The notes under the pieces were generated by a model. It made no database searches, was not told the origin of the DNA, and worked only from the letters and a program-made list of their open reading frames with translations. The translations under genes were made by a program, and so were the position numbers. A stretch of 64,000 bases of DNA from IMG/VR virus record IMGVR_UViG_3300025832_000005, positions 1 to 64,000 of that record; one strand, given 5' to 3'. Positions 35,608 through 59,036 of the stretch are shown here, piece after piece (position 1 is the first letter of the stretch; each line of letters starts with the position of its first letter). Source of the DNA: a virus.

Positions 35608-35955
35608 TTAAAATATTCCTAGTATTAGTTTACAATCTTCACTCATCATTTCAGGACCCCATTGTGGATCAAATGTAATGTTTACATCAACATCGTCAAC
35701 ACCGTCTACTGAATTTGAGGCGCTTTGTACATCTGCAATAATATCGTCTGCCGCAGGGCAAAACGCACTTGTTAAGCTCATTGTAATTTTACATAGCTGA
35801 TTATTTATATCAATATTATATATTAATCCTAGATCGTAGATATTAACAGGAATCTCCGGATCATAAACTTCTTTTAAGTTTGCTACTATTTTATCGTGTA
35901 TTAGGGTTTTGTCAACATCTTGAATGTCAACATGTCCTGTTTCTTCTTGAACCAA
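35608..35955 (-). CDS. MIP18/DUF59 family Fe-S assembly protein (SufT/PaaD-like)
   Basis: A 115-residue DUF59 protein. Family marks: DPEIPVNIYDLGLIYNI and LTSAFCPAADDIIADVQ with the conserved Cys, then VDDVDVNITFDPQWGPEMMSED. SufT and MIP18 proteins help mature Fe-S proteins. With the A-type carrier and ferredoxin nearby, the phage seems to secure cluster supply. It overlaps the next gene upstream by 55 bases. Confidence 0.92.
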   Translation of the reverse strand: MVQEETGHVDIQDVDKTLIHDKIVANLKEVYDPEIPVNIYDLGLIYNIDINNQLCKITMSLTSAFCPAADDIIADVQSASNSVDGVDDVDVNITFDPQWGPEMMSEDCKLILGIF

Positions 35956-42044: not shown

Positions 42045-44087
42045 TTACTTGGTTTGGGCAAAAAACACGCCATTCCAATCTTTAGGTAAGTCTTGTGTCT
42101 TTTGGAATTCACAACGCTCAATCCACATATCATAGTAGCCAGCCATTTGTCCGTCAAAGTGATCATGTAACATCTTACACTTGTCTATTGCGTCATCAAA
42201 TCTTTGCGCCAGATAGTCTTCATACATATCTTGGTGTTTCTTTTGTGCTTTACGCCAAGCTGGACGCTTCTGATCTAATACTGTCCATATACCAACACCA
42301 ACACTCTTGCCTTTAACTGCTAAGTCATCTATCTTTAAGTAAAAGAAGTCTGACTTAGTTGTTTGGTATGTAGCATCGCCTACTAGTAGTAAACATCCGT
42401 ACTCTTTACATTTTGATTCAATACGTGCGGCAGTACTTACTGCGTCTCCCAAAACATCATAACTGTGTCTAGCTGTTGATCCCATCTCACCAATATAACC
42501 AAGTCCTGTATTGATACCTGCGCCCATGCCTACTGCTGGTCTACCTTGTGGAATAATAACTTCTTCATTAAATTTATCCACTGCCGCTAACATATCTAAT
42601 CCACATTGTACTGCGGTTCTTGGATGGTGACGATCATCTATAGGCGCATTGTGTATGTGCATACTAGCATCGCCTATATACTTAATAATCATTCCATCAC
42701 TGTCTAATACAGGCTGTGTAATACTATCCATGTAGCCATTCATTATTTTAGTTAGGCCTTTTACATCGTCACCAAAACTCTCACCTAGTGGAGTAAAGCC
42801 ACGCAAGTCACTAAACACGATACTAACTTCTTTCTTTACACCATCTTTAATGAGTGCTGGATTTTCTTGTAGTAGTTTAACAACTGTAGGTGATGCGTAT
42901 CCGCCAAACTGTTTCTTAATTTCTTGTTTTTGTAGGAATTCATCTACAAATTTAACTATATACCTAGTCATGCCCACTAGTATTAAAAAGGCACTAGATG
43001 TAGCGCCATCAATCAAATAGTTATAGTTATTAAAACTATATATGCTATAAAATATTGAACCACCTACTGCGACTACAAATACTATAATGCCAGCATAAGT
43101 CCAACGTGCTAGTACAATAACAAAAAGTCCTACTAATAAGAAGCCTAACATTTCAGCATCAAAAGCCCAAGCAGGTCGTTCAATATTACTTTTGTTAAAC
43201 ACTGTGCCAAGTATAGTGGCATGTATTTCGTGTGGGTATATACTGCCCGCCGCTGTTGCTACTGGCTGTGAAACACCTGCCGCTGTTGGGCCAACAAATA
43301 CTATGCCGCCATCAAAGTCGTCTGGTAAGTTTGTTGTGCTATAACTTTTATTCTTTTGACTCCAGTCAATCCAAACACGCCCAAGTCCATCTGTTTGTAT
43401 AATACCAAACTGTGGTATGCGTAGTTTGTCAACACCAAATTCATTTAACTTAATCTGAAAACTAGGATCTCCAGCAATAACTCGTAATACTTCCATTGTA
43501 ACACTTGGATAAAGTGTGCCTTGGCTTTCTATAACCATTGGCATACGTCTTGTTACACCATCAGCTTCTGGGAATGTATCTACGATGCCACTGCCAACTG
43601 ATGAAAATTCTATGTCTGGTACGTTTGCTATAACACCTTCACGGCTGGGTATAAGGTACATAAAGTCACTATTAACAATAGTAGCACCAGGATTAATTGC
43701 TTCGTTTTTATTCTCATCTGCGCCCAGCATGTTTAGGATAACTGGTAACTGTTGCATTGTTAATGCTAAATCTTGATCCTCTCCTGCTCGATCAGTTTCA
43801 GCCATTAGTACATTAAACACAACTAAGCCAGCACCACGGTCATATAAGTCTATAATTAACTCACTATAGTCTCCACGTGGCCAGGGCCATTGTCCTTTTT
43901 CTTCTAAACTTGCTTCGTCTATGTTAACAGTGTATATGTTATTTTCAATTGGCTCTTGATTTACTATTAGTTGGTCAAAGTATCTCAACCTTAAACTATC
44001 TAGAAATACTGGGTTACTACTATACACCCAAGTAAGAAGTAGTAGTACAAGCACACTCCATATTGGAGAGAATAATATCTTACGCAT
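42045..44087 (-). CDS. CHASE2-domain class III adenylate/guanylate cyclase
   Basis: A 680-residue membrane cyclase, long for a phage. Residues about 6-24 are a first membrane helix; about 30-315 is a CHASE2 sensor (INNYTVNIDEASLEEKGQWPWPR type: NIYTVNIDEASLEEKGQWPW); three more helices span about 318-380; the cyclase domain is about 420-610, with FSDLRGFTPLGES (metal Asp 1), KYIGDASMHIHNAP (metal Asp 2 and purine Lys) and GAGINTGLGYIGEMGS then DVLGDAVSTAARIE. It would make cAMP (or cGMP) in response to a periplasmic cue. Phage cyclases of this kind are rare. Confidence 0.88.
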   Translation of the reverse strand: MRKILFSPIWSVLVLLLLTWVYSSNPVFLDSLRLRYFDQLIVNQEPIENNIYTVNIDEASLEEKGQWPWPRGDYSELIIDLYDRGAGLVVFNVLMAETDRAGEDQDLALTMQQLPVILNMLGADENKNEAINPGATIVNSDFMYLIPSREGVIANVPDIEFSSVGSGIVDTFPEADGVTRRMPMVIESQGTLYPSVTMEVLRVIAGDPSFQIKLNEFGVDKLRIPQFGIIQTDGLGRVWIDWSQKNKSYSTTNLPDDFDGGIVFVGPTAAGVSQPVATAAGSIYPHEIHATILGTVFNKSNIERPAWAFDAEMLGFLLVGLFVIVLARWTYAGIIVFVVAVGGSIFYSIYSFNNYNYLIDGATSSAFLILVGMTRYIVKFVDEFLQKQEIKKQFGGYASPTVVKLLQENPALIKDGVKKEVSIVFSDLRGFTPLGESFGDDVKGLTKIMNGYMDSITQPVLDSDGMIIKYIGDASMHIHNAPIDDRHHPRTAVQCGLDMLAAVDKFNEEVIIPQGRPAVGMGAGINTGLGYIGEMGSTARHSYDVLGDAVSTAARIESKCKEYGCLLLVGDATYQTTKSDFFYLKIDDLAVKGKSVGVGIWTVLDQKRPAWRKAQKKHQDMYEDYLAQRFDDAIDKCKMLHDHFDGQMAGYYDMWIERCEFQKTQDLPKDWNGVFFAQTK

Positions 44088-45518: not shown

Positions 45519-46373
45519 TTAATTTTGTGTTACGCTAATAGCGCATCCTATTGTGTTTGTACAGATCCCTGTTAAACTGTATGATTGATTAGTTGTGCTG
45601 TCTTGTGTTGTATTTACAGTATACGCCCCACCACCATTGGTGAGGTCTAAAGTCATACTATGAGATCCAGTACCTTCCTGTGAACTCGTCACATCATGGT
45701 CGTTACCCGTTAGTACCAGTCTACCAAAGTTATATTGTCCACCTTGATATCCATCTATTGTATTATCATTTCCAACAACCTTCGCCTGAGCTTGATTGTA
45801 TTGTGATCCATCTTGTACAAGTGTAATGTTATTTCTATCACCAGTTATTGGTGTGTTGCCATACCCATGTACTATATGATTGTTACCATCTTGGTCTACA
45901 GTAATAGTATTATCATCACCGTTTGCTTCTACTTTTGCAAAGTTGTAATTACCATCTTGATCAACAATAATAGTTTGATTATAATCACCACCATTGCCTA
46001 GTTCGGCATATGCATAGTTATAGTTGCCATTTTGTTCAATATCAATAACACAATTATTACCATGGCAATCTAAACTTGCTGAGTTGTTATCGCCTATTTG
46101 CGACACATTGTTTATTCCATTACCAGAACTCATCCACGCCCACACTTGATTATTGTCACCTGTTTGCGCATATGTAGTGCTTGTGTTGTTACCACTTACT
46201 TGAGCTTTACCGCCCGAACCAGTTATCTTATTGTTAGCGCCATCTTGAGTGATAGTCATATCTATATTATCACCAACTTGTCTAATCCATATTTCATTTG
46301 CCCAACTAGTAGTTGTTTTGATTGATAACAATACTGTTAGAGGAACCAACACCCACTTTAAAACCGTATTCAT
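45519..46373 (-). CDS. Curlin-repeat protein (CsgA/CsgB-like), 284 aa
   Basis: Start ATG 46373 follows GGAGG by 7-8 bases. Signal peptide about 1-24 (LLSIKTTTSWA), then an array of Gln/Asn repeats of curlin type (Q-x-G-x-x-N): QDGANN, QTGDNN, QIGDNN, QNGNYN, QDGNYN, QDGNNH, QDGSQY, QGGQYN. Two Cys pairs are scattered. Curlins are secreted through CsgG and form amyloid fibres. Adjacent CsgG, CsgF and a second curlin-like protein support this. Whether the phage protein forms fibres, and when, is unknown. Confidence 0.85.
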   Translation of the reverse strand: MNTVLKWVLVPLTVLLSIKTTTSWANEIWIRQVGDNIDMTITQDGANNKITGSGGKAQVSGNNTSTTYAQTGDNNQVWAWMSSGNGINNVSQIGDNNSASLDCHGNNCVIDIEQNGNYNYAYAELGNGGDYNQTIIVDQDGNYNFAKVEANGDDNTITVDQDGNNHIVHGYGNTPITGDRNNITLVQDGSQYNQAQAKVVGNDNTIDGYQGGQYNFGRLVLTGNDHDVTSSQEGTGSHSMTLDLTNGGGAYTVNTTQDSTTNQSYSLTGICTNTIGCAISVTQN

Positions 46374-47436
46374 AAAACCCTCCTTGAACAAAGTCTACAT
46401 TGTAGCTGTGACTTTGGCTTAAATTTAATTGAAAGAAATGTTGATCTCCTTCTTTGCGACTTACTACAAAATAAGGATATTCCTCATCATAAAATATATT
46501 TGTATCTGGATCTAATCCAAAAAACTTATCCTGAAAAAACTCTACATTTTGTGTTCCTAGACTATCAAACCATTTTGATAGTATTTCAGCAAGTTGTTTT
46601 TCCAATTGATCTATAAACTCTGAATTTAGGTAAGTTGTGTTATCTAAATCAGTTACCCAAATATTTTTAATACCATCAACTAATGGATCACTGTCTAGTT
46701 CGTCAAACTCTAAAAAGTCAATGTCTAATATATCAGTAGGTGGTTTTTGTTTTATTATCTCTTCTGTGTAAGGTGATACTTTACGTACAATTAACATTGC
46801 TGTAAGCATATTTTCTGGTAAGTCTAGTACAACTCCTGGCTTTGGAACAGCACCACTGTGTGAAACTATAGTAGTTTGGAATGCTTGATTCATAATAACC
46901 ATTCCCACATCGCTCTCAACACTAATCTCACCAGTTACACATAATCCACTTTCATCACAACTGGGCAATAGTGTTATCATACTGCCGCCTATCTCATCTA
47001 CAATCATCATAAAGTCTGTACCACGCACTGTAACTTTAGCACTTGGCGTTCTTATGTTTACTCGTTGTCTTGAATTCTTTGCTATTTGTCCACTAGCATA
47101 ACGTACTGCGCCTAGTGTTGCTTTCATACTAAGAGCACCTGTTCCACTAGCTGGATCGTATATAAACTCATCAATAGTCATACGACTATTTTCAGTAACA
47201 TCTACTCTAGTATCGTCTACAAAGTCTAAACGCAATTTACCTTTACCAGTAGCAATATTATCGTTCATTTGTAAGCCAAGACCTACTTCGCCAGTGTATG
47301 CTTCTTTATCACGTTTAATTGTACTTGTGCCAGAAGATTCAGCAACCGCTCCAATAGGAGTTGCCCTAGCTATACTTACGTATGCTAGAGCAACAAATAT
47401 TATACATATAAGTTTAATCGGATTGTGTAATATCAA
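46306..47436 (-). CDS. Exported FecR-domain protein, 376 aa
   Basis: A 376-residue exported protein: signal peptide 1-25, then a FecR domain (about 28-170: IGAVAESSGTSTIKRDKEAYT, GKLRLDFVDDTRVDVTENSRM, SAKVTVRGTDF) as in periplasmic FecR-like proteins, and an unrecognised C-terminal half. The start is TTG 47436; its last 68 bases overlap the curlin gene start, so expression is coupled. FecR-like domains occur with adhesins in bacteria. I recall such a protein in pelagimyophage curli clusters. Confidence 0.78.
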   Translation of the reverse strand: MILHNPIKLICIIFVALAYVSIARATPIGAVAESSGTSTIKRDKEAYTGEVGLGLQMNDNIATGKGKLRLDFVDDTRVDVTENSRMTIDEFIYDPASGTGALSMKATLGAVRYASGQIAKNSRQRVNIRTPSAKVTVRGTDFMMIVDEIGGSMITLLPSCDESGLCVTGEISVESDVGMVIMNQAFQTTIVSHSGAVPKPGVVLDLPENMLTAMLIVRKVSPYTEEIIKQKPPTDILDIDFLEFDELDSDPLVDGIKNIWVTDLDNTTYLNSEFIDQLEKQLAEILSKWFDSLGTQNVEFFQDKFFGLDPDTNIFYDEEYPYFVVSRKEGDQHFFQLNLSQSHSYNVDFVQGGFYEYGFKVGVGSSNSIVINQNNY

Positions 47437-48181
47437 CTGTGTTACCGTCCCCAGTTGAAGTTATATCTACTAGGTTATCGTAGATACCACTTTGTGTAAT
47501 AGTATATACACTACCACCACCTGTTATATCTAATGTTACAGTGTGTCCTAAAGTATCACCATTACCATCAATATTTAAATCAATAATGTTACCTGGAGAA
47601 TTAGTACTTAGGTTAGTATCAGTTGCGCTTGTAATTGTTGATCCACTTGCTGTTGATGCGCTGTTGTCAATTTCTACAGTAACATTAGCATCAGTTCCAT
47701 CCAAGTCCATTTGTATCAGGTTGTCATCACCATCAATTGTAAAGTTAACAGTGGCATCACCGCCATCAGTAGTTTCACCAATCTTAAAGTCATAGTTGTT
47801 GTCATCACCTGTTGTAGTAATATTTAATGTTACATTATCACAATTGCCACCACCAATTGTTGCTGTGCTGTCACATAATAGGTCAACATTGTTACTATTT
47901 CCAGTAAACACCCAGGTACCTGTATAACTGTCACCAGCAATAATTGCGTCAATAGTGTTTGTATCACCAGTTTGTGTTATACTAAACACCATATTATCGC
48001 CATAGAGCCCAGCGTCTGTAGTGCTGTCTCCAAATTCGTTGTTTTGTCCGTCTTGAGTGATATCTAAATCTAGACTATCCCCAATTTGTGTTATATATAT
48101 TTCATTAGCCATTACTGATAACGATGCTAATGTTGTAAACACTATTGCCATTATGGCACTACTTAATAATTTTTTCTGCAT
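47414..48181 (-). CDS. Second curlin-like repeat protein, 255 aa
   Basis: A 255-residue secreted protein: signal peptide 1-25 ending SVMANEIYI, then a Gln/Asn/Asp/Thr-rich repeat array (QIGDSLD, QDGQNNE, QTGDTNT, GDDNNYD, GDDNLIQ, GDGNTVD). The start of the mature part (ANEIYITQIGD) matches the other curlin's ANEIWIRQVGD. Only some repeats keep the Q-G-N signature, so it may be nucleator-like (CsgB role). It overlaps the FecR gene by 23 bases. GAGAGTGAGATC lies upstream. Confidence 0.78.
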   Translation of the reverse strand: MQKKLLSSAIMAIVFTTLASLSVMANEIYITQIGDSLDLDITQDGQNNEFGDSTTDAGLYGDNMVFSITQTGDTNTIDAIIAGDSYTGTWVFTGNSNNVDLLCDSTATIGGGNCDNVTLNITTTGDDNNYDFKIGETTDGGDATVNFTIDGDDNLIQMDLDGTDANVTVEIDNSASTASGSTITSATDTNLSTNSPGNIIDLNIDGNGDTLGHTVTLDITGGGSVYTITQSGIYDNLVDITSTGDGNTVDITQSD

Positions 48182-48200
48182 ATAGATCTCACTCTCACAC

Positions 48201-48210
48201 TTATATTTAG
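48201..48210 (-). promoter_or_regulatory. Late-promoter variant CTAAATATAA
   Basis: Minus-strand CACTAAATATAAGTGTGA, 20 bases before ATG 48181. Nearly the same string, TTAAATATAAGTGTGA, lies at 59774-59789. Confidence 0.45.
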
Positions 48211-48249
48211 TGAAATGTGGGTGAAATTGGGCAGATATACTAAAGTATA

Positions 48250-48390
48250 TTAGTTATTATGGGTATCTGGATTTAACGCCTTATCTGTATTGGGGCCAAC
48301 TTGTTGCCAAAATATTTGACTACGTGATTGTAATGTATGATATACTATACCACCTATTATAACTGCTAATGATATTAAAATCCATTTCAT
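48250..48390 (-). CDS. Small membrane protein, 46 aa
   Basis: A 46-residue protein (MKWILISLAVIIGGIVYHTL...) with one N-terminal helix and a polar tail. It lies between csgG and the curlin genes, adjacent to csgG's stop, so it may be part of the secretion set. Not recognised. Confidence 0.6.
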   Translation of the reverse strand: MKWILISLAVIIGGIVYHTLQSRSQIFWQQVGPNTDKALNPDTHNN

Positions 48391-48396
48391 TTTAAG

Positions 48397-49215
48397 TTAA
48401 TGCTCACCTTCTAGATGAGATTCGCTTTCTTCCCATTGCCATAAGCCCAATTCAACACCTTGACATATAATTTCTATCACTACTGCTTCAATAGCTTCCC
48501 TTACAGCATAGTTTACTGGCTCGTTTACGCTGTAACCACTTTCAACTTCCAATGCTTTAGTGCCAAGGTCTAAAAACTTAAATACATCTCCAGCTGTGCG
48601 ATAACTAGCAATAGATTTTTCTGCGGCTACACTCACCAATACACGGCCGCTGCTTACGCTAACTAATCGCATACTAACTGTTACTGTATCAATACGATAC
48701 TCTGCGGCTGATCCAAGACCAAAGTATCTAGCACCTGCTCCGCCTGTGGTAATATTTGAATCGTAGCCTACAATGCCACCCTCAACTAATATACCAGCAA
48801 ACTTCATTGGCGGAAGTGGGGTAGCGTCTTCTGCTTCATAATTTTGCCTTGTGTTACGTATTAACTGACGTTCTTTAATAACGTTATCCATGCCTACACG
48901 TTCCACAACCTCAAACCAAGTGCCTTCGCCTGCTTGTAGCAACGCATCTATTACCCAAACTTCAGCACCCTGTGTTACTGCGCTAGATAAGTTAGCAATA
49001 TTGTCTGCTGGCTTACGTTGTCCAGTTTTATCTGTAAAGCTATATACTCCAACAGTCATAACAGGACCATTTAATGGCTTTAACTGATTCAGTTCTGTTA
49101 CTAGTGGGTTTTCCTGTAAGTTTGCTGGACGTTGTAATGGTTTAGGTAATTTTGGATTGTAATTACTACACCCAGCCAGAAATACAGTAAGTATTATTGT
49201 TGTTATTAGCTTCAA
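48397..49215 (-). CDS. csgG: CsgG-like curli secretion channel
   Basis: A 272-residue lipoprotein of the CsgG family, which forms a nonameric outer-membrane pore for curlins. Lipobox LAGC (Cys16); then TVGVYSFTDKTGQRKPAD, WFEVVERVGMDNVIKERQLIRN, LVEGGIVGYDSNITTGGAGARYFG and YRIDTVTVSMRLVSVSSGRVLVSV, all close to CsgG blocks, with the transmembrane-hairpin region present. Length is near the E. coli 277. Overlaps csgF by 4 bases. Confidence 0.94.
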   Translation of the reverse strand: MKLITTIILTVFLAGCSNYNPKLPKPLQRPANLQENPLVTELNQLKPLNGPVMTVGVYSFTDKTGQRKPADNIANLSSAVTQGAEVWVIDALLQAGEGTWFEVVERVGMDNVIKERQLIRNTRQNYEAEDATPLPPMKFAGILVEGGIVGYDSNITTGGAGARYFGLGSAAEYRIDTVTVSMRLVSVSSGRVLVSVAAEKSIASYRTAGDVFKFLDLGTKALEVESGYSVNEPVNYAVREAIEAVVIEIICQGVELGLWQWEESESHLEGEH

Positions 49216-55569: not shown

Positions 55570-55584
55570 TAATTAGGTTTCCTT

Positions 55585-55966
55585 TTGTGTTGGCTGTACT
55601 TTAACCTATGTTTCAGCCGTCATAGTGTAACGCTTCTGTTGCTAGGTGCGTTACAAACCCCCACTTACCTAATTAGGCAGCTAAAGCCATTTCTGGCGCT
55701 CTATTTGCGTTTGCATTTAGAAAGTTTATTCGCGGTAACGGCGCTTATATCCCGGTAACTCCACTCATCTATCCTACCTGTCGATCCTATTTCGACCCCA
55801 TCAAAAACACACTAGCACTCTTATTCTTTACCCTATTTCTAGGTCCTCTATATCGAGTTATCATCTCGGGAAAGAGAGGTTATATTTCAAACCTAATGTG
55901 TTTATGGTGGAGTCGCCGGGTACCGCCCCCGGGTCCAGTATAGTCGTCAAATCACTTCAACGTTAC
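55585..55966 (-). ncRNA. ssrA: tmRNA, circularly permuted two-piece type
   Basis: On the minus strand the acceptor piece comes first, ending CGACTCCACCA (CCA at 55907-55905) after a T-arm GGACCCGGGGGCGGTACCCGG. After a 105-base loop the coding piece starts at 55799 with GGGGTCG, which pairs with CGACTCC as a 7-bp acceptor stem. The tag frame starts at GCA 55714 and reads ANANRAPEMALAA, stop 55675-55673. A GTAACGC/GCGTTAC stem and an H-type pseudoknot (CTATG/CATAG with GGCTG/CAGCC) follow near 55592-55654. This permuted order is the alphaproteobacterial form. tmRNA rescues stalled ribosomes and tags products for Clp proteolysis; clpA, clpS and clpP are all in this window. Confidence 0.93.
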
Positions 55967-55972
55967 AGTCTA

Positions 55973-56001
55973 TTTATATACTAAACACAAGAGGATGTCA
56001 A
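55973..56001 (-). promoter_or_regulatory. Sigma70-type promoter for tmRNA
   Basis: TTGACA (56001-55996), 17-base spacer, TATAAA (55978-55973) on the minus strand. The start would fall near 55966, at the acceptor piece. Confidence 0.87.
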
Positions 56002-56045
56002 GCCTTATTATAGAAAAGACTAAATAGACTGGATAGAAAAAACAC

Positions 56046-56102: not shown

Positions 56103-56945
56103 ATGACGCAACTCATAAACCCACAAAAATTTACAGACACAGTTGGCCTTTTAAGGTCATTTTTTTTGGACAAAGGCTTCTTAGAAGTACATACCCAAAA
56201 TAGACTAAGCATACTTGCCGCATGTGAAGATCCGTTCAATGTAGCAACATACAATTACGCAGACCAGGTTTGGCCATTACCGCAAACAGGCCAGATGTGG
56301 TTAGAACATGAATTATTAAGCAAGCCCGATAGTAAGGGCTTTTTTTGTGTGTCAACGTCCTATAGACAGGAACCAAACGCTATACCAGGCAGACACGACA
56401 TTATCTTCCCAATGTTTGAGTTTGAGATGCCGGGCGATGTAGATGATCTTAAAAAGATGGAAATTGAACTATGTGATTACTTGGGCTTTGACCCACTAAC
56501 AGAAAAAACATACAGCGACTGGCAAAAACACTTTGGTGTAAGTCAATCAACTGAAATGGACGCACAACACGAATTAGCAATGGATATGAACTTTGGTAGT
56601 TGTTTAATTACAGACTTCCCAGAACTAACATCACCTTTCTGGAACATGGCACGTAACGATGATGGCAATACTGCTAAGAAGATGGATGTTATCTTAGGTG
56701 GTATGGAAACTATTGGATCAGCAGAACGTAGTTGTGATGTTGATATGATGCGTGATACATTCCACAGTATTGTAGACGGAGACTATGCTGAGCTGCTGTT
56801 TAAATTGTTTGGTAAAGAACGTGTAGAAGCAGAACTAGAAGAGTTCCTCAAGTTTGACTTCTTCCAAAGAGTAGGTGGTGGCATTGGCATGACACGTATG
56901 ATTGCCGCACTGGATAAACTACAAAGTTTAGACAAAGCCGCCTAA
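56103..56945 (+). CDS. Class II aminoacyl-tRNA-synthetase-like protein
   Basis: A 280-residue protein with a class IIb synthetase core (Asp/Asn/Lys or AsnA type). Motif 1: FFLDKGFLEVHTQNRLS; motif 2: STSYRQEPNAIPGRHDIIFPMFEFEM with the fRxE Arg; the DVILGGMETIGSAER block like DLVLNGxEIGGGSxR; motif 3: GGGIGMTRMIA. No anticodon-binding OB domain is present, so it resembles truncated or AsnA/AspRS-like paralogues. It lies 8 bases before a long-variable-arm tRNA on the same strand, so both are probably one transcript. Which amino acid or molecule it activates cannot be read here. Confidence 0.82.
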   Translation: MTQLINPQKFTDTVGLLRSFFLDKGFLEVHTQNRLSILAACEDPFNVATYNYADQVWPLPQTGQMWLEHELLSKPDSKGFFCVSTSYRQEPNAIPGRHDIIFPMFEFEMPGDVDDLKKMEIELCDYLGFDPLTEKTYSDWQKHFGVSQSTEMDAQHELAMDMNFGSCLITDFPELTSPFWNMARNDDGNTAKKMDVILGGMETIGSAERSCDVDMMRDTFHSIVDGDYAELLFKLFGKERVEAELEEFLKFDFFQRVGGGIGMTRMIAALDKLQSLDKAA

Positions 56946-56952
56946 AAATTGA

Positions 56953-57052
56953 TCTGGGGTGGTGAAAGTGGTAGACACGCACGACTGTTTATCGTGTGGT
57001 AGATGTTCGCAAAATATTTATCGTGTAGGTTCGAATCCTACCCCCAGAGCCA
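56953..57052 (+). tRNA. tRNA with long variable arm, anticodon read as GUU
   Basis: A 100-base tRNA. Acceptor TCTGGGG/CCCCAGA with discriminator G and encoded CCA (57050-57052); D-arm 3-bp stem with GG in the loop; anticodon stem CACGA/TCGTG (56980-56996) with loop CTGTTTA, giving anticodon GTT (56987-56989), which is an asparagine anticodon; T-arm GTAGG TTCGAAT CCTAC. A 28-base variable arm (56997-57024) folds as a 7-bp stem. Class II arms belong to Leu, Ser or bacterial Tyr tRNAs, and the D-arm also looks Leu-like; base 37 is U where A is expected. The GUU plus long arm mix is unusual. Confidence 0.85.
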
Positions 57053-58593: not shown

Positions 58594-58815
58594 TTACATC
58601 TTTTTGCAGTCGAAGTAAGACTTTTCTAATTGTACTGGCACACCGCCTTTTGCGATACATACTTCTTTCCAGTTTGGTTCGTTAAATTTTTGAATAACAG
58701 CATAGAAACCAAAAGCTATACATATTACCATAAGTGAAGTCATAATTACAAACATATAGAAACCTAACTTCTGCACTACCTGTGCTGATATTTCAATGTG
58801 CTGATCACCTACCAT
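58594..58815 (-). CDS. Small membrane protein, 73 aa
   Basis: A 73-residue protein with one hydrophobic helix (LGFYMFVIMTSLMVICIAFGFYAVI, about 17-41) and a C-terminal tail with two Cys (KEVCIAKGGVPVQLEKSYFDC). It overlaps the AtpE-like gene by one base (TAATG-like), so the two are probably made together. Could be an assembly partner; unknown. Confidence 0.62.
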   Translation of the reverse strand: MVGDQHIEISAQVVQKLGFYMFVIMTSLMVICIAFGFYAVIQKFNEPNWKEVCIAKGGVPVQLEKSYFDCKKM

Positions 58816-59036
58816 TAGACAGCAAACATTAATAGCAGTGCTACTAAGAATGCAAATATTCCTAATGCTTCCGCAAATGCTACACCAACAAACATTGTGC
58901 CTGTGTCACTTTTCTTAGGCATTACTTTAAGTACACTACCTACAATCATTCCAACACCAATGGCTGCTCCGCCCATTCCAATTGTTGCTAACCCTGCGCC
59001 AATCATTGCGCCAAACGTTGCTATATCACCAGTCAT
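58815..59036 (-). CDS. atpE: ATP synthase subunit c-like proteolipid
   Basis: A 73-residue double-helix proteolipid matching F-type subunit c: helix 1 [29 protein letters not shown] with the GxGxGxG-type packing motif, polar loop VMPKKSDTG, helix 2 [26 protein letters not shown] with the proton-carrying Glu in FAEALGIF. It reads like alphaproteobacterial AtpE. The loop lacks the usual Arg-Gln-Pro and has MPKK instead. Such a subunit could enter the host rotor ring or form a pore. Phage-encoded AtpE is not a standard auxiliary gene. Confidence 0.9.

Follow-up and report, generated by a model that had tools for sequence, protein, structure and literature searches.

The window analysed here comprises 64,000 nucleotides of a virus record of 133,132 bases (IMG/VR record IMGVR_UViG_3300025832_000005) and carries, on its plus strand, a synthetase-like gene followed directly by a tRNA gene. 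The open reading frame at 56103–56945 encodes a predicted class IIb synthetase core of 280 residues, which PHROGs assigns to phrog_29758 (E = 1e-131), a family with no function attached. Seven bases (56946–56952, plus strand) separate this gene from the tRNA, since the last base of the stop codon is 56945 and the first of the tRNA 56953; the spacing of 8 bases given in the original prediction was thus in error. Among relatives, the spacer is mostly 4–12 bases long. The tRNA itself, at 56953–57052, has 97 nucleotides (to 57049) plus an encoded CCA and combines a long variable arm of class II with a GUU anticodon, G73, and a U1-A72 first pair. Just upstream of the synthetase gene lies a divergently oriented, permuted tmRNA of alphaproteobacterial type (55582–56026, minus strand; tag ANANRAPEMALAA), an arrangement that recurs in several relatives.

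Fold and identity marks of the tRNA

The Rfam tRNA model scores 47.1 bits at 56953–57049, and the minimum-energy structure of the tRNA folded alone is a cloverleaf (−33.3 kcal/mol, z = −2.96) whose anticodon loop reads CTGTTTA, that is, GUU with U at position 37. In this structure, the 5′ acceptor strand TCTGGGG (56953–56959) pairs with 57042–57048, while the anticodon arm CACGA-CTGTTTA-TCGTG spans 56980–56996, with the anticodon GTT at 56987–56989 and U37 at 56990. The variable arm forms a hairpin of 10 bp (56998–57022), the T arm GTAGG-TTCGAAT-CCTAC (57025–57041) is indicated by covariation as well as by the minimum-energy fold, and G73 and the CCA follow at 57049–57052, all on the plus strand. 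Among 35 diverse aligned sequences, 99.8% of the cells in the cloverleaf and variable-arm stem are paired, versus 42–60% in slid controls, and double changes occur in 19 of the 23 stem pairs (187 such cells). The variable arm differs widely in length but stays a hairpin in almost all aligned relatives (98.1% of cells paired). In these 35 tRNAs, covariation extends to all five pairs of the anticodon stem; it pins down the loop and leaves no room for an alternative Leu or Ser anticodon, so that the class II reading with GUU and U37 stands as originally proposed. ARAGORN instead reports an ATC anticodon ('Asp'), a misplaced call that covariation in the relatives rules out. The covariation marks the tRNA as a genuine RNA under selection.

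The suspicion that the variable arm holds a partial duplication of the anticodon arm did not survive comparison. The TTTATCGTGT repeat is real, occurring at 56988 and 57017 and once more at 35890, but close relatives carry TTTACCGT in the variable arm and TTTATCGTG in the anticodon arm, marking the repeat as a coincidence of a conserved arm. Some relatives depart from the regular structure: in loci L004, L008–L010, and L014, the T stem has one extra base (GCATGG/CCTGC) and the rest is intact, and in L086 (5855–5885) the tRNA is reduced to two acceptor strands and the CCA (TCCGGGG-T-CCCCCGGAGCCA), reflecting either an internal deletion or an assembly fault.

G73 is present in 132 of 132 distinct tRNAs, as is GUU, the invariance of the latter being due in part to the choice of these tRNAs by a GTT-centred loop. 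In the unfiltered list, other loops occur only at cellular and huge-phage loci without a real tRNA, at a spurious locus (L029), and at a mis-registered one (L133). The remainder of the loop is less constant: position 37 is occupied by U in 115 of the 132, by A in 16, and by C in 1, position 33 is C in 11 of the 132, and positions 32 and 38 drift as well. The first pair is U1-A72 in 35 of 35 aligned tRNAs. In bacteria, asparagine identity is set by the anticodon together with G73, and amidation relies on U1-A72 as the mark of tRNA-Asn (PMC9976931). The phage tRNA therefore resembles tRNA-Asn in keeping GUU, G73, and U1-A72 in all aligned members but differs from it in having a class II rather than a class I body, a long rather than a short variable region, a D arm like that of tRNA-Leu, and, in most members, U37 instead of a purine. 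Nor is it a tRNA-Leu, as it has neither a Leu anticodon nor A73 and is Leu-like only in its D arm and class II body; this Leu-like body, noted in the original prediction, is confirmed by the tRNA-family model, which picks mostly ordinary tRNA-Leu as its best matches in the sampled cellular genomes. The 3′-terminal 29 bases match class I tRNA-Asn genes in other phages at ~90%. The phage tRNA is thus a mosaic, a class II body bearing the identity marks of asparagine. Both its D loop and its T loop are of the standard kind, and tertiary structure and factor binding therefore look intact.

Architecture and active site of the enzyme

The sole Pfam match of the 280-residue protein is tRNA-synt_2 (PF00152; class II D, K, N), which fills residues 14–278 (E = 7.6e-17) and leaves no room for an N-terminal OB fold. 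The AlphaFold2 model (mean pLDDT 92.1) likewise begins directly with the catalytic core, opening with a core helix. Both results bear out the earlier description of a class IIb core without an anticodon-binding domain: the N-terminal OB domain that is a feature of AsnRS is absent. A class II catalytic core that includes motifs 2 and 3 is present, as shown by the Pfam match, the model, Foldseek, and invariant residues (R88, E90, R97, and H98 of motif 2 and R265 of motif 3) in 62 sequences with 42–86% identity to the window protein. In the structural comparison that had been proposed for this protein, Foldseek ranks AsnRS structures first (best matches TM 0.71–0.78, 16–21% identity), followed by those of AspRS and LysRS. 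The AsnRS model TIGR00457 scores 29.1 bits, far below its cut-off of 342.6, and the AspRS and asparagine-synthetase models also match weakly, far under their cut-offs.

In AsnRS, the amide of asparagine is held by Glu and Arg, whereas AspRS holds aspartate with Lys and Arg (PMC7387524). Profile alignment places the sequence QTGQMWLE of the enzyme family against QSSQLYLE of AsnRS, the corresponding AspRS sequence being QSPQLYKQ. The family thus has the Leu-Glu pair (L67, E68) together with an Arg (R209), and the lysine of AspRS is absent. These three residues are invariant in a set that takes in a chlamydial homologue and both huge phages in which the family was found (uncultured records of 735 kb and 484 kb). 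The enzyme looks intact, and its pocket is of the asparaginyl-synthetase type. It resembles AsnRS in its catalytic fold, its motif 2 and 3 arginines, and this pocket but differs in lacking the OB domain, in its low identity to solved AsnRS, and in falling far under the curated cut-off.

The pocket also bears on an indirect route, in which the enzyme would charge aspartate and the host GatCAB would then amidate it to asparagine on the tRNA. The U1-A72 pair speaks for such a route as a known determinant for amidation of Asp-tRNA-Asn (PMC9976931), but the same pair is also simply typical of tRNA-Asn, and a pocket having the Leu-Glu pair of AsnRS and no AspRS lysine points away from aspartate. We consider the indirect route improbable.

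Linkage in viruses and homologues in cells

A protein scan recovered at least 598 relatives of the enzyme on viral contigs. Among the best 80 of these, the parser places a tRNA directly downstream in 76, one of these calls being spurious (L029); of the rest, one locus is at a contig end and three are without a tRNA. A second set of 80 loci, centred on phage P-SSM2, yielded 76 tRNA calls and four loci cut by contig ends. One of these 76 (L133) was parsed in the wrong register, the tRNA sequence nevertheless being there. Taking both sets together, the tRNA is found in 151 of 155 loci with enough downstream sequence, and the enzyme stands without a nearby tRNA in a few phages (L027, L062, L063, and probably L029). 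The converse search, which used a pattern of the D arm and anticodon loop alone and was blind to the protein, returned at least 120 matches, and a synthetase gene lies just upstream on the same strand in 117 of the 120 loci listed; in the remaining three, the contig ends 26–58 bases upstream of the tRNA. The two genes, which might never have been neighbours outside the window, are thus nearly always adjacent in viral contigs, and in phages they are obligately linked. The pair is borne by hundreds of marine viruses of bacteria, with the tRNA the apparent private partner of the enzyme.

Linkage in both directions, together with covariation, refutes the idea that a broken synthetase gene lies by chance beside an ordinary, misread tRNA, an idea to which the tRNA-Asp label of ARAGORN might lend some colour and to which we give virtually no credence. 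A self-contained pair, one of the options raised in the original prediction, is instead strongly supported by the phage linkage, the Asn-type pocket, U1-A72, G73, and GUU.

The pair is also present in three isolates, the Prochlorococcus phages P-SSM2, P-SSM5, and P-SSM7, where it is annotated merely as 'tRNA ligase' and 'tRNA-Asn'. Their T4-GC 194 'tRNA ligase' belongs to the same family (65–68% identity), and the identical class II GUU tRNA type lies 7–9 bases downstream, so that these loci differ in annotation only. With the P-SSM7 tRNA as query, full-length matches of at least ~85% identity were found only in these three phages. In the P-SSM2 record (NC_006883.2; L113), the annotated tRNA-Asn is ~2 kb away from the sequence match (164094 versus 162084), apparently through a coordinate error. 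The parts are therefore already annotated in three cyanophages, and synthetase-tRNA pairs as such are known; what is new is the obligate phage-borne pair of an enzyme without an anticodon domain and a class II tRNA-Asn, which we did not find described in a search of the open literature, subscription papers and preprints lying mostly outside its range. The synthetases of huge phages are host-related and have been proposed to charge phage tRNAs (PMC7162821). Such phages are comparable in carrying translation enzymes, and the 735-kb and 484-kb records include members of the present family; no tRNA was found just downstream of the gene in either record, and the homologue from the 484-kb phage, used as the query of a protein scan, yielded no relatives among viruses.

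Cellular homologues (42–63% identity) occur in Bacteroidota, Patescibacteria, Chlamydiota, and other groups, with no adjacent tRNA. No class II GUU tRNA was detected in five of their genomes examined closely, and the flavobacterial, chlamydial, and patescibacterial genomes examined yielded ordinary tRNAs only, indicating that the enzyme family can exist without the phage-type tRNA. Of 25 genomes that hold a cellular homologue, 16 encode a full AsnRS scoring above the cut-off, which led us to reject the mini-enzyme as a substitute for a missing cellular AsnRS. The lack of an adjacent tRNA, mostly beside a full AsnRS, implies at least one further use of the family, or a different partner; gene neighbourhoods of the cellular homologues (PEPCK, GldB, and others) offered no clue to function. 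In a quick tree with several open forks, the tRNA-linked rows almost all group in a single part, where a few MAG rows are interleaved, and most unlinked cellular rows fall outside it.

Catalytic-core-only synthetase paralogues with asparagine-synthetase or tRNA-modifying roles exist, and the phage enzyme could be one of these (AS-AR, AsnA, or an analogue of GluQRS), leaving the 3′ end of the tRNA uncharged and the adjacency to some other cause. The tRNA-free cellular homologues, mostly alongside a full AsnRS, would fit such a paralogue, as would a weak match to PRK06462 (NCBIfam; E = 2e-5, 23.9 bits versus 389). Arguing the other way are the obligate neighbourhood of the two genes in hundreds of phages, the Asn identity marks of a tRNA that covaries, and intact class IIb motifs; we hold this explanation to be very improbable.

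Three Bacteroidota genomes with a cellular homologue (Chitinophagales, Aureispira) also contain an unlinked class II tRNA with a GUC anticodon, U1-A72, G73, and a variable arm of great length. The Bacteroidota GUC tRNAs (L403–L420, L335, L336, L338, and L339) have U1-A72, G73, a phage-like D arm, and variable arms of 39–99 nt. Several adjoin a gene for an Lrp/AsnC-family regulator, and at L320 ARAGORN gave no call for the GUC tRNA. Within one sample of 295 Bacteroidia genomes, the GUC tRNA occurs in 15 and the enzyme in only one, so a link between this tRNA and the cellular homologues is not established. The Bacteroidota GUC tRNAs are a separate tRNA group and do not count as evidence for a pair.

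Proposed function of the pair

Taken together, the sequence data lead us to favour, as the probable reading, a phage aminoacylation module in which a minimal, anticodon-blind AsnRS-like enzyme and a private class II tRNA-Asn (GUU) are adjacent and co-inherited. In this module, the mini-enzyme would activate asparagine and charge the neighbouring tRNA. Because the enzyme lacks an anticodon-reading domain, recognition would be expected to depend on the acceptor end (U1-A72, G73) and on the class II body, including the variable arm. The Asn-tRNA would then read AAU and AAC codons during infection. Host asparagine, leucine, and serine synthetases would handle the chimeric tRNA poorly, and the anticodon loop would be free to drift, as in U37, C33, and the changed positions 32 and 38. 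Such drift may represent release from host synthetase and modification checks aimed at the host tRNA-Asn. It could also spare the tRNA from host nucleases that cut the anticodon loop, a benefit put forward for other phage tRNAs with altered anticodon loops (PMC10264068); the present tRNA is like these in that the loop is changed and the anticodon kept, but differs in being rebuilt as class II with its own synthetase alongside. We see an even chance that the self-contained pair is vertically co-inherited as an insulated phage asparagine line, with a tRNA that host synthetases neither recognise nor mischarge.

With an anticodon-blind enzyme, an invariant GUU amid drifting positions 32, 33, 37, and 38 suggests that codon reading is the constraint. 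We rejected a reassignment of AAY codons: three asparagine positions in the phage GuaC and ClpP genes, which we take to be conserved, are encoded by AAC or AAT, so that these codons do not look reassigned. Counting against the proposed module are U37 and C33, which are unusual for elongator tRNAs, and the cellular homologues and few phages that hold the enzyme without a nearby tRNA.

Since U37 and C33 are poor features for decoding, a use of the charged tRNA outside the ribosome has to be taken seriously as a rival. The tRNA could donate its aminoacyl group in the modification of peptides, lipids, or protein ends, or act as a regulatory RNA, and GUU would then be retained because something else reads it, for example a modification enzyme. 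Other roles are also suggested by the related-looking Bacteroidota GUC tRNAs, with their U1-A72, G73, giant variable arms, and, in several cases, neighbouring Lrp/AsnC genes. Nevertheless, GUU is strictly kept while the remaining loop drifts, the standard T and D loops suggest that tertiary structure and factor binding are preserved, and no candidate transferase is constantly found beside the pair; a non-ribosomal use therefore appears unlikely, if not negligibly so.

Pyrrolysyl-tRNA synthetase, a class II enzyme of small size, has an odd tRNA of its own, tRNA-Pyl, whose anticodon is unused for recognition. The phage pair is similar in joining a small class II enzyme to its own odd tRNA and, presumably, in its independence of the anticodon, but differs in subclass, amino acid, anticodon, and tRNA shape, and it reassigns no stop codon. 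Few private synthetase-tRNA pairs occur in nature, and they make valuable tools. If the aminoacylation module is confirmed, an anticodon-blind enzyme of ~270–280 residues that hundreds of marine phages carry together with its matching tRNA would constitute a ready-made orthogonal pair, and the 132 distinct natural tRNAs would provide a mutational record of the enzyme's requirements. The module would also make testable the long-standing question of why phages carry tRNAs and whether these are insulated from host control or nucleases, and with P-SSM2 and P-SSM7 in culture, such a test is within reach.

Elsewhere in the window, the minus strand encodes a phage ATP synthase subunit c of 73 residues (58815–59036; PF00137, E = 2e-11), a phage protein combining CHASE2 with an adenylate/guanylate cyclase (42045–44087), and, judged by eye, a row of curli-like repeat proteins with a CsgG-like lipoprotein (45519–49215).
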